Below are positions 36,801-63,006 of a DNA stretch of 64,000 bases, in pieces. The notes under the pieces were generated by a model, which saw nothing but the letters and a program-made list of their open reading frames with translations, was not told where the DNA came from and did no database searches. The first letter of the stretch is position 1. Every line of letters begins with the position of its first letter. The translations under genes were made by a program, and so were the position numbers. Where the stretch lies: contig NZ_CP101989.1 in NCBI RefSeq assembly GCF_024508275.1, forward strand, positions 3,844,001 to 3,908,000. The letters run 5' to 3'. The DNA comes from Cellulomonas wangsupingiae. Lineage in GTDB: Bacteria > Actinomycetota > Actinomycetes > Actinomycetales > Cellulomonadaceae.

Positions 36801-37069
36801 CCCGCGAGAGCGCAATCCAGTCCCCACCCCACCCGCGAGAGCGCAATCCAGTCACCCGCCCCAGGACGCAGACGTGACTGGATTGCACTCTCACGCCAGA
36901 AGGGGGGGTGTGGGGGTGGCAGTCCAGGGCCCTCAACCCGCCCGCGAGAGCGCAATCCAGTCACCCGCCCCAGGACGCAGACGTGACTGGATTGCACTCT
37001 CACGCCAGAAGGGGGGGTGTGGGGGTGGCAGTCCAGGGCCCGGGCCCGCACGTGAGAGAGCGATCCAGT
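36801..37069. repeat. Tandem palindromic repeat array (two 101-bp copies plus two half copies)
   Basis: Two near-identical 101-bp units lie at 36832-36932 and 36941-37041 (109-bp period). Each contains an inverted repeat with arms GAGAGCGCAATCCAGTCAC and GTGACTGGATTGCACTCTC (18 of 19 paired) around an 18-nt GC-rich loop, then a G-run tail (AAGGGGGGGTGTGGGGGTGG). Half copies of the left arm occur at 36801-36821 and, diverged, at 37051-37069. A further half copy sits inside hemD at 59781-59801. The array fills the gap between the aminotransferase gene and the gene at 37147. Confidence 0.93.
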
Positions 37070-37134
37070 ACCCGTCGCTGGGGCCGCTGCGCGGCGCGCC
37101 GGGCGTCCGGCCTGTGCAAACGGCCAGGAAGGGG

Positions 37135-58546: not shown

Positions 58547-58629
58547 CGATGTCCGCCGGCGCATTTGCGGGGACCCCGGAGCCGCCCTGCGGTTTCGACA
58601 TCCGCCCGCCCGGCGACGACACTGGACGC

Positions 58630-59655
58630 ATGTCTCAGCAGGTTCTGGTCGGCACGCGCGCGAGCGCCCTGGCCCTCACCCAGACGGGCCACGTGGCCGA
58701 CGCGCTCGCGGCCGCCGGCGGCCTGGCGGTCGAGACGGTCCGCGTCCGCACCGAGGGCGACCGCGTGCGCGCGTCGCTCGCGACCCTGGGTGGCACGGGC
58801 GTCTTCGTCACCGCGCTGCGCGACGCGCTACTGGACGGCCGGTGCGACGTGGCGGTGCACTCCCTCAAGGACCTGCCGACGGGCCCCGCCGACGGGCTCG
58901 TCGTCGCCGCCGTCCCGCCCCGGGCCGACCCGCGGGACGCCCTGTGCGCCCGCGACGGCCTCACCCTGGCGACCCTGCCCGCGGGAGCCCGCGTCGGCAC
59001 CGGCTCGCCCCGCCGCGCGGCGCAGCTGCGGGCGGCACGCCCGGACCTCGACGTCGTCGACATCCGCGGCAACGTCGGCACCCGCCTGGGGCGCGTGCGC
59101 GGGCTCGACGGCACGACCGTCGCGACCGGCCGGCACGTCGGGCCCCAGGCCCCGCACCCGGGCGTCGCGACCGACGCCCCCCGCGGCGACCTCGACGCCG
59201 TGGTGCTGGCCGCGGCCGGTCTGGCCCGGCTCGGCCGCCTGGACGCGGTCACCGAGCTCTTCGAGGCCGACGTGCTGGCCCCCGCACCCGGCCAGGGCGC
59301 GCTGGCCGTCGAGGTCCGCGCGGCCGACGCCGCCGACGACACACCCCTCGCGGCCGCCCTGCGCGCGCTCGACCACGCGCCCACCCGTCGCGCGGTCGTC
59401 GCCGAGCGCGCGGTCCTGGCCCGGTTGGAGGCGGGCTGCGCGGCGCCGATCGGCGCCTGGGGACGGCTCGACGCGACCGGCGCCCTCACGCTCGACGCCG
59501 TCGTCGCCGCCGTGGACGGGTCCCGCGTGGTGCGGCTCGGCACGCACGGCCCCGCCCCCGACGACGCCGCCGCCGACGCACTCGGCCGTCGCCTCGCCGA
59601 GGACCTGCTGGCCGCCGGCGCCGCCGACCTCGCCCCCCTCGGGACGACCCGGTGA
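58630..59655 (+). CDS. hemC: Porphobilinogen deaminase (hydroxymethylbilane synthase)
   Basis: 341 aa. Dipyrromethane-cofactor Cys270 in [23 protein letters not shown] and [16 protein letters not shown] motifs; [13 protein letters not shown]. It links four porphobilinogens. A GACACT -10-like box 6 nt before the ATG suggests a leaderless start inside the hem cluster. Confidence 0.96.
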
Positions 59656-60644
59656 CCGCCACGGACGGCAGCCCCACCCCCGACCCGCCGCCCACCGGCA
59701 CCGTCCCGGGCCCGCTGAGCGGCTGGCGCGTCCTGGTCCCCCGCCCCCCGCTCGACCCCGCCCTCCCCCCGCCCCACCCCCCCGCGAGAGAGCGATCCAG
59801 TCGCGCAGCCGCCGGTCCCGCGGCGGTCAGCCCTGCCGCGGTCGCCCTCGCGGCCGTCGGCGCGGAGCCACTCGTCGTGCCGCTCGTCCGGACGGTCCCC
59901 CTCGACGACCTCACGCCGCTCGACGACGCGCTCCTCGCGCTCGGAGCCCGCTGGTACACCTGGCTCGCCGTCACGAGCCAGGCCGCCGTGGCCGTGCTGG
60001 CGGAACGCGCCGCGGCGCACGACGACGGGCTCGCGGCGCTGCTCGCGCGCGGCGGCGTCCGCGTCGGCGCCGTCGGGCCCGGCACGGCGCGCGCGCTGGA
60101 GGCGCTGGGCGTGCGCGTCGACGTCGTGCCGCCGGTGCGCTCGACGGCCGTCGACCTCGTCGCCGCCCTGACCGCGGCCGACGCACGAGGGGCCGGCACC
60201 GCACCCGACGCCCCGACCCCCGCCGCTCCCCGCGCGCTGTTCCCGCGCGGCGACCTGGCGGCCCGCACCCTCGCCGACGGGCTCACGTCCGCCGGGTGGG
60301 ACGTGGACGACGTCGTCGTCTACCGCACGGTCCCCGCCGGACCGCCGGAGCCGCAGGTCACGCGCGCGTGGGCGGCGGGCGACGTCCACGCGGCGCTGCT
60401 GACGTCCGCGAGCAGCGTGCGCGCGCTGCTCGACCACCTCGGCCCCCCGCCGGCCGCCACCCGCGTCGTCGTCATCGGCCCCAGCACCGCGGCCGAGGCG
60501 CGGCGCCTGGGCGTCCGCGTCGACGCCGTCGCCGCCCGCCAGACCCTCGCCGGCCTCGTCGACGCGCTCACCGACCTCGTCGCCCGCACCGGCGCCACCC
60601 CCGGCTCACCCCCGCCACCGACCCCCACGGAGGACCTCCCGTGA
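59652..60644 (+). CDS. hemD: Uroporphyrinogen-III synthase with a repeat-derived insert
   Basis: 330 aa from GTG overlapping the hemC stop (GTGA). HemD features: [10 protein letters not shown] at the start, [73 protein letters not shown]. Between the first strand and AVGAEP there is an extra low-complexity stretch, [15 protein letters not shown], whose DNA (59771-59801) matches the dispersed palindromic repeat near 36.8 kb. It extends the protein by about 25 residues without a frameshift. It closes hydroxymethylbilane to uroporphyrinogen III. Confidence 0.9.
59781..59801 (+). repeat. In-frame copy of the dispersed palindromic repeat half-unit inside hemD
   Basis: The 21 bp CCCGCGAGAGAGCGATCCAG plus T match the half copies at 36801-36821 and 37051-37069 (same CGATCCAGT form as the latter), also preceded by a C-rich run as in the array. 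Confidence 0.8.
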
Positions 60645-61633
60645 CCACTCCCGGTCCCGGCCGGCTGCGCCCGCGCCGCCTGCGCCGCACCCCGGCGCTG
60701 CGTCGCCTCGCCGCCCAGACACGTCTGCACGCGGCGGACCTCGTCCTGCCCGTGTTCGTCCGCGAGGGCCTGGACGCCCCGCGCCCGCTGACGTCGATGC
60801 CCGGCGTCCTGCAGCACACCCGCGCGTCGCTGCGCCAGGAGGCGGCGCGAGCCGCCGAGGCGGGCATCGGCGGGATCATGCTCTTCGGCGTGCCCGCGCA
60901 CCGCGACGCGACCGGGTCGGGCGCCACCGACCCCGACGGCATCCTCAACCTCGCGATCGCGGACGTGGTCGCGGAGGTCGGTGACGCGCTCGTCGTGCAG
61001 GCCGACCTGTGCCTGGACGAGTTCACGGACCACGGGCACTGCGGTGTCCTGACCTCCTCCGGGGCGGTGGACAACGACGCGACCCTCGAGCGGTACGCCG
61101 CGATGGCCCGCGCGCAGGCCGCGGCGGGCGCCCACCTCGTCGGGCTGAGCGGCATGATGGACGGCCAGACGGGCGTCGTCCGCGACGCGCTGGACGCCGC
61201 CGGGCACCAGGACGTCGCCGTGCTCGCCTACGCCGCCAAGTACGCGTCGGCGTTCTACGGGCCGTTCCGCGAGGCCGTGGAGTCGCAGCTGCACGGCGAC
61301 CGCCGCAGCTACCAGATGGACCCCGCCAACCGCCGCGAGGCGGCACGCGAGGTCGCGATCGACGTGGCCGAGGGCGCGGACGTCGTCATGGTGAAGCCCG
61401 CCATGTCGTACCTCGACGTGCTCGCGGACGTCGCGGCGACCTCAGCCGTGCCCGTCTGGGCGTATCAGGTGTCCGGTGAGTACGCCATGATCGAGGCGGC
61501 GTCCGCGCAGGGGTGGATCGACCGTCGGAGTGCTGTCACGGAGTCCGTGCTCAGCATCCGTCGAGCCGGTGCCGATGCCATCCTGACCTACTGGGCGACG
61601 GAGCTGGCCGGGTGGCTGGCGGAGGAGCTGTGA
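60641..61633 (+). CDS. hemB: Delta-aminolevulinic acid dehydratase (porphobilinogen synthase)
   Basis: 330 aa from GTG overlapping the hemD stop. Schiff-base lysines in [16 protein letters not shown] and [13 protein letters not shown] (Lys252). Metal-site region [14 protein letters not shown] has Asp where zinc enzymes have Cys, pointing to a Mg-type or mixed metal site. It condenses two 5-aminolevulinates. Confidence 0.96.
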
Positions 61634-63006
61634 TGACGCAGGTGGAGGACGACGCCACGGTTGCTCCCGGGTACGGCCCGGCCTGGGCCGGCAGCAGCGC
61701 GGAGGCGTTCGCGCACGCCACGGCCGTGATCCCCGGCGGCGTGAACTCGCCCGTGCGCGCGTTCGGGTCCGTGGGTGGCACCCCGCGGTTCCTCGCGTCG
61801 GCGCGCGGCGCGTACGTCACGGACGTCGAGGGCCGCGACTACGTGGACCTCGTCGGGTCGTGGGGTCCGGCGCTGGTCGGGCACGCGCACCCGCAGGTCG
61901 TCGAGGCGGTGCAGGAGGCGGCCGCGCGCGGTCTGGGGTTCGGTGCGCCGACGACGACCGAGGTGGAGCTCGTCGACGAGATCCGCGAGCGCGTGCCGGT
62001 GGCGGAGCGCGTGCGCCTGGTCTCGACGGGTACCGAGGCCGTGATGACCGCGCTGCGGCTGGCCCGCGCGTGGACCGGTCGCGACAAGATCGTGAAGTTC
62101 GCCGGCTGCTACCACGGCCACGTCGACTCCCTGCTGGCGCAGGCCGGCTCGGGTGTCGCCACGCTCGCCCTGCCGGGGTCCGCGGGCGTGACGGCGGCCG
62201 TCGCCGCCGAGACCATCGTCGTGCCGTACAACGACCTCGACGCCGTGCAGGCCGCGTTCGACGAGCACGGGTCGTCGATCGCCGCGGTCATCACCGAGGC
62301 CGCGCCCGCCAACATGGGCGTCGTCCCGCCGATGCCGGGGTTCAACCGCGAGCTGCGTCGCATCACCCAGCACCACGACGCGGTGCTGATCCAGGACGAG
62401 GTGCTCACGGGCTTCCGCGTCGGCCGCGCCGGCTGGTGGGGCCTGGAGGGTGCCTCCGAGCAGTGGGCGCCGGACCTGCTGACGTTCGGCAAGGTCATCG
62501 GCGGCGGGCTGCCCGTCGCCGCGGTGGCCGGGCGCGCGGACATCATGGAGCAGCTCGCGCCGGTCGGGCCGGTCTACCAGGCGGGCACCCTGTCCGGGAA
62601 CCCCGTCGCGACGGCCGCGGGCCTGGCGACGCTGCGGCTGGCCGACGCCGAGGTGTACGCGCGCGTCGACGCCGCGTCGGCGCACCTGCGTCGCGCCGTG
62701 ACGGCCGCCCTGGCCGAGGTCGGTGTGCCGCACGCTCTGCAGTGGGCGGGCAGCCTGTTCAGCATCGTGTTCGGCGAGCAGGCCGCGGCCGAGGGCGCGC
62801 GCGACTACGCCGCGGTGCAGGCCTCGGAGCACTGGCGGTACGCGCCGTTCTTCCACGCCCTGCTCGACGCCGGCGTGCTGGCGCCCCCGTCGGCGTTCGA
62901 GGCGTGGTTCGTCTCGGCCGCGCACGACGAGGGCGTGCTGGACCGCGTCCTGGAGGCGCTGCCGACGGCGGCCCGGGCAGCGGCCGCAGCCGAGCGCCCG
63001 GAGTGA
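61633..63006 (+). CDS. hemL: Glutamate-1-semialdehyde 2,1-aminomutase
   Basis: 457 aa. PLP fold: [45 protein letters not shown], and Lys287 in [17 protein letters not shown]. Start overlaps the hemB stop by one base (TGATG), GGAGGAG just upstream. It makes 5-aminolevulinate and completes the C5 branch with HemA. Last gene of the hem operon, followed by a bidirectional terminator. Confidence 0.96.

Follow-up and report, generated by a model that had tools for sequence, protein, structure and literature searches.

The uroporphyrinogen-III synthase (HemD) encoded in the window, the whole 64,000-nucleotide stretch of Cellulomonas DNA analysed here, probably contains, in translated form, a copy of a dispersed repeat specific to one clade, which would have spread within the genome and be kept in a tolerant loop of the protein. 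The repeat is dispersed in the genome and lies in frame within five kinds of protein; tandem units advance by whole codons, and the repeat is absent from relatives.

The hemD open reading frame (59652-60644, + strand) encodes 330 residues matching PF02602 (E 9.8e-51) over positions 4-230 of 231, that is, over the whole domain. HemD chains are among its PDB matches (best E 2.7e-19), and in the best match, 4es6, the profile runs through the place of the insert with no insert there. The gene stands in a row of haem genes, the neighbours at 58549-59652 (PF01379/PF03900), 60641-61630 (PF00490) and 61630-63003 (PF00202) having Pfam matches that fit hemC, hemB and hemL. The insert lies in a variable linker (59757..59828, + strand; residues 36-59), which holds a C-rich tract (59757..59782, + strand; 85% C over 59757-59783) preceding a solitary 20-bp repeat unit in sense orientation (CGCGAGAGAGCGATCCAGTC; 59783..59802, + strand), read in frame 2 as A R E R S S; the C-rich stretch and the repeat copy end before SPAAVAL. 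The initial annotation had placed a half-unit of a dispersed repeat in frame just 3' of the first beta strand, and this was borne out, with the reading frame staying open through the repeat. In an AlphaFold2 model of HemD built from 48 sequences (mean pLDDT 90.7), pLDDT falls to about 57-63 over residues 31-60, which have no secondary structure, and the repeat is predicted to sit in the loop between beta1 (26-30) and alpha1 (61-68), a low-confidence coil, where it would be a disordered and probably neutral passenger.

The repeat word is 20 bp long (SGYGAGAGNGCNATCCAGYC), and its hemD copy is identical at 17-18 of 20 positions to the six units of an array near 36.8 kb (36803-37070, both strands), which lies in the divergent gap between a PF00155 aminotransferase gene (- strand) and a PF04020 gene (+ strand). 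Units 1, 2, 4 and 6 of this array lie on the + strand (36803..36822, 36834..36853, 36943..36962 and 37051..37070) and units 3 and 5 on the - strand (36876..36895 and 36985..37004), unit 2 being the hairpin partner of unit 3. The sequence GAGAGHGCRATCCAGT has seven exact matches in the window, six in the array and one in hemD, and nine matches with up to three mismatches, against 2.28 expected in shuffles, none of 100 of which reached nine. Across the window's genome (G000) there are 192 matches to the 16-bp core with up to one mismatch and none to the reversed pattern. The consensus of 159 copies (core with up to one mismatch, from the fetched stretches of this genome) is a C-rich tract (57-76% C at positions -15 to -7) followed by SGYGAGAGWGCRATCCAGYC. 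A concern had been that the hemD match was too short to be more than coincidence: outside some 21 bp and the C-rich tract there is indeed little further identity. A second-order Markov model built on a repeat-rich sample nevertheless predicts only 0.002 chance matches per genome for the 20-bp motif, and a chance origin of the motif is refuted.

By inspection of the same consensus, a single unit is not self-complementary, and units are often solitary or in same-strand runs; palindromes arise because units pair in inverted orientation. Among the five stretches folded, a 44-nt inverted pair forms a perfect hairpin (-39.7 kcal/mol, z -9.6), followed by a second inverted pair (z -8.7), the array (z -3.5) and the stretch from hemD (z -2.6); a pair on the same strand folds no better than shuffles (z -0.84). 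A known RNA family was rejected as an identity for the repeat, the single match being sub-threshold and outside the array.

High copy number is limited to one clade of Cellulomonas. Among 81 genomes of the genus, 12 carry 4-291 copies and the other 69 carry none or one; the single matches are background, because the reversed control likewise matches once in each of six genomes. When one genome per species was scanned with a 19-bp pattern (84,980 species), 41 stretches were found, 31 of them from Cellulomonas (C. iranensis, C. avistercoris, C. phragmiteti, sp. B6 and MAG N5CT), with the remaining 10 having one match each in unrelated organisms. Two genomes with 4-5 copies, G061 and G093, are nested within the bearing clade, which suggests erosion of the repeat; this reading is tentative because branches within the clade are in part weakly supported.

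Among 80 genomes of the genus, 75 yielded a HemD, and 32 loci were examined (30 fetched and two more), 17 of them read in detail. Relatives lacking the insert align on both sides of it, as the initial annotation had anticipated. In the 15 more distant loci the loop is short (for example VLVPRPTAGRSPA) and there is no exact core. With the motif defined as the core with up to two mismatches, it is present in 7 of the 17 loops read in detail (G000, G003, G016, G019, G058, G059 and G067), all from repeat-rich genomes, with 1-6 copies each. The 24 copies comprise 16 without mismatch, seven with one and one with two; the exact core, which requires T at its last position, scores in only 4 of the 30 fetched loci. 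The motif is absent from all seven repeat-poor genomes among the 17. None was found in the loops of G061 and G093 or of G053, G081 and G082, whose genomes are free of the repeat, in the 50-53-residue loops of G006 and G011, or in G007 and G043, which are repeat-rich but have loops of 9 residues, and the G086 loop consists of four tandem 42-nt units in which the motif is only degenerate, beyond two mismatches. Tandem steps of 33 nt (G016 and G059) and of 42 nt (the degenerate G086 units) keep the frame. Since the loops of G006 and G011 are long without the motif, loop growth needs no repeat, and since loop length varies across the genus even where the repeat is missing, the site was a tolerant one. 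The presence of the motif in 7 of 17 loops makes it older in HemD than several species, and the idea that the hemD copy was a private, fresh hop is contradicted. Separately, HemD of G043 and G007 (L115 and L116) has a long insert between the protein halves, around residues 186-189 of the window's HemD.

Copies in other coding genes, which had been proposed as a check, were found in CopA, an AAA ATPase, HrpA and UreF. The CopA loop 3' of the EHP motif carries 1-6 copies in 8 of the 13 loops read (that of G016 contains a run of N, and CopA of G007 lies at a contig end); the motif is absent from all four loops of the repeat-poor G053, G061, G082 and G093, and the G086 loop has only look-alikes beyond two mismatches. 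The AAA ATPase linker carries the motif in 9 of 11 whole linkers, including that of G093; it is absent in G061, G086 again has look-alikes only, beyond two mismatches, and in G043 the gene is split over contigs, with no site in the piece seen. A single variant common to the HemD, CopA and AAA loops of G086 was considered and not borne out in the DNA. HrpA copies in four genomes (G000, G016, G058 and G059) and UreF copies in three (G000, G058 and G059) are examples rather than a census, these genes having been chosen because they bear sites. An amidase gene of G058 (L165:284-1927) also has two in-frame antisense copies (GSLSHAPGGGEG units).

Sense copies are read in frame 2 in 38 of the 40 counted, including all eight in HemD, and give peptides like AREQSS. 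A rule that every sense copy is in frame 2 was ruled out by two UreF copies of G000 in another frame (RECNP). Antisense copies are in frame 0 in HemD (16/16), frame 2 in CopA (6/6), frame 1 in UreF (4/4) and, in the AAA ATPase, frame 2 (nine copies) or frame 0 (three copies, G007). No p-value is given for this bias because copies within a gene and among related species are not independent; at the level of genes, the sense frames agree in five, with the exception in one genome. Part of the bias arises because a GTGAG-type unit in frame 1 gives a TGA stop.

Most copies lie 3' of stop codons, in intergenic gaps. Their context was counted with a simple codon-usage gene caller in the fetched clusters of three genomes: for G000, clusters with exact-core sites plus a few one-mismatch sites from within the 100 places listed, and for G058 (174 sites) and G059 (181 sites), clusters from the first 100 sites of each listing. 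The caller missed the true UreF start, so that UreF sites were counted as intergenic, and the counts carry small errors of this kind. Among these clusters, the 93 gaps with sites comprise 49 same-direction, 36 convergent and 8 divergent gaps, compared with 57, 12 and 17 among the site-free gaps of 60 bp or more in these stretches, giving an odds ratio of 6.4 for convergent versus divergent gaps (p 8e-4) and p 0.05 for divergent versus all other gaps. In the 49 same-direction gaps, the median distance is 23 nt from the stop to the first site versus 92 nt from the last site to the next start (Wilcoxon p 7e-5). In G000, whose chromosome has near position 1 an open reading frame that we take by eye to be dnaA, the half of the chromosome distal to position 1 holds only 3 of 35 exact-core clusters (p 4e-7). 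On the left arm, among the sites listed, the trend is weaker in G059 (3/16, p 0.02) and not significant in G058 (7/23, p 0.09).

At least 13 of 23 clusters listed for G059 and at least 13 of 28 for G058 are orthologous to G000 repeat stretches by flank alignment, with coordinates read by eye, and much of the spread is therefore old. Shared array sites differ between species in the number, orientation and variants of their copies: T stands at position 5 in 40% of G000, 43% of G059 and 4% of G058 copies, and C at position 15 in 26%, 34% and 73%, respectively. Because variants are species-specific although many array sites are shared, homogenisation within genomes appears to have taken place. A gene of about 396 residues without a Pfam match lies between arrays (L086:2054-3244 and L143:1850-3037); its orientation in G058 is the reverse of that in G000, as though recombination between arrays had inverted it.

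These positions also bear on the alternative that selection maintains the 20-bp word as a functional site, such as a 3'-end hairpin, terminator, mRNA stabiliser or site for a chromosome-organising protein, with the coding copies as by-products. This has a real, if minority, chance of being correct. The preference for gene 3' ends and convergent gaps, the persistence of arrays in orthologous gaps, the scarcity of clusters in the far half of the chromosome and the strong hairpins of inverted pairs all agree with it, but unpaired single units and same-strand runs are common, the same-strand pair tested folds no better than shuffles, and the comparison of divergent gaps with all others is borderline. 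The family is also missing from most of the genus and, on a tree with partly weak support, declines to a handful of copies in G061 and G093 inside the bearing clade, and the same 3' bias is described in the consulted part of PMC3733652 for REPs, which are thought to be mobile.

A second alternative is that translation of HemD starts downstream of the insert, the repeat being 5' untranslated sequence. The database proteins P0011, P0013, P0015 and P0020 do begin 3' of the insert, without the first beta strand. However, the codon at which several records start is GTC in G000, CTG in G067 and TTC in G086, none of them ATG, GTG or TTG, and of these only CTG is even a rare start codon. A downstream start would also remove beta1, yet the 12 codons preceding the insert look translated because they are constrained (pN/pS 0.16 over 12 genomes), and the frame is kept through all eight long repeat-type loops printed. 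This alternative is very unlikely, and the short database starts are probably misannotations caused by the insert.

Least credible of all is that the HemD loop reflects ordinary drift of a low-complexity Pro/Ala linker resembling the array by chance, since, although loop length varies in the genus also without the motif and C-rich runs are common in the window's genome, the expected number of matches is far below one per genome, the reversed control gives none, copies recur in CopA, AAA, HrpA and UreF, and antisense copies occur in the same loops, leaving drift as an account only of the flanking Pro/Ala residues.

Under the preferred reading, that of a translated copy of a dispersed repeat, the unit is a C-rich tract plus a 20-bp half-palindrome, occurring singly, in tandem or as inverted pairs able to form 20-bp hairpins. 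It would spread within the genome by duplication, via a trans-acting factor or ectopic copying during repair. Copies would be mostly harmless 3' of genes and survive in the gaps there, and a genic copy would survive only in a tolerant loop, when it brings neither a stop nor a frameshift, and would then grow or shrink by whole codons. The initial annotation had linked the repeat to mobility through the hemD insert; as we infer it here, it follows from the dispersal and the within-genome homogenisation of the repeat, and no transposase candidate held up. In HemD, CopA and AAA, repeat-bearing and repeat-free loops have diverged too far for an empty site or target duplication to be read.

Mobilisation by a RAYT transposase (PF01797) was rejected, as no member of this family was found in the 12 bearing genomes; it was found in 1 of 80 genomes only (G004, repeat-free). 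A PF18741-type endonuclease was first suspected because a gene that combines an AbiEi antitoxin-type domain with a sub-threshold match to PF18741 sits between arrays in three genomes (L095:566-1486 in G000:C1, at about 1.929 Mb; also G059 and G058), and was rejected, the family being present in 80 of 81 genomes and uncorrelated with the repeat. A search for a gene family recurring beside arrays, covering 177 array-side genes in the three genomes, gave two weak within-genome pairs only (28% and 33% identity). A non-RAYT, clade-specific system that copies a C-tract-tagged half-palindrome, homogenises it per genome and acts recurrently on the same core proteins, seeding and remodelling their disordered loops, is a speculative and somewhat doubtful proposal; if true, it would be a natural generator of protein linkers.

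Here, proteins of a free-living, G+C-rich actinobacterium have been invaded by a small dispersed repeat, which in about ten species occupies the same loops of several conserved proteins. The differing copy numbers across species offer a ready series for studying the ways in which proteins accommodate or exploit inserted repeats, and the repeat is a handle for finding a mobilising factor. In practical terms, the HemD of several species in databases starts after the insert and thus drops the first beta strand. Among the titles and abstract beginnings searched, with most subscription journals outside their range, no account of a repeat of this kind in Cellulomonas was found.

The parallel that had been drawn with the Rickettsia palindromic elements (RPE) is apt, and other conserved genes also bear in-frame copies. 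In the part of PMC2229807 available, RPE are described as 105-146 bp stem-loops that occur in intergenic gaps and in frame in conserved proteins, where they are probably tolerated; an RPE-inserted guanylate kinase is active with changed affinity, and the title of a reference listed there concerns palindromic repeats in Wolbachia proteins. Like RPE as described there, the Cellulomonas repeat is a small dispersed repeat found both in gaps and in frame within conserved proteins. Unlike them, its hemD copy is a single 20-bp half-unit with a C-rich tract rather than a 105-146 bp palindrome with terminal inverted repeats, and its host is a free-living, G+C-rich actinobacterium. MITEs such as Correia/NEMIS, ERIC and RUP resemble it in having short inverted pairs, many copies and some copies fused to reading frames (available part of PMC2229807), but for the Cellulomonas repeat no fixed two-ended element was seen and no parent insertion sequence was found.

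Intragenic repeats are not unique to Rickettsia, because REPs lie inside genes in several species. The part of PMC3733652 consulted, in which the term 'actinobacter' does not occur, describes GTAG and CGTC REPs as lying 3' of genes, with some species having them in core regions and several having them within genes, and with no known dedicated transposase for the CGTC type. The REP unit described there is itself a 20-40 bp palindrome, whereas the Cellulomonas unit is not; by inspection of the 159-copy consensus, no GTAG or CGTC tag flanks its core, and no RAYT, the transposase associated with GTAG-type REPs, was found in its bearing genomes. Like REPs and BIMEs as that source presents them, the Cellulomonas repeat has a 3'-end location, inverted pairs, arrays, intragenic copies and, in some species, restriction to core regions, and, as for the CGTC type, no dedicated transposase was found for it; its copies, like those of REPs, lie mostly downstream of genes and more rarely in divergent gaps.
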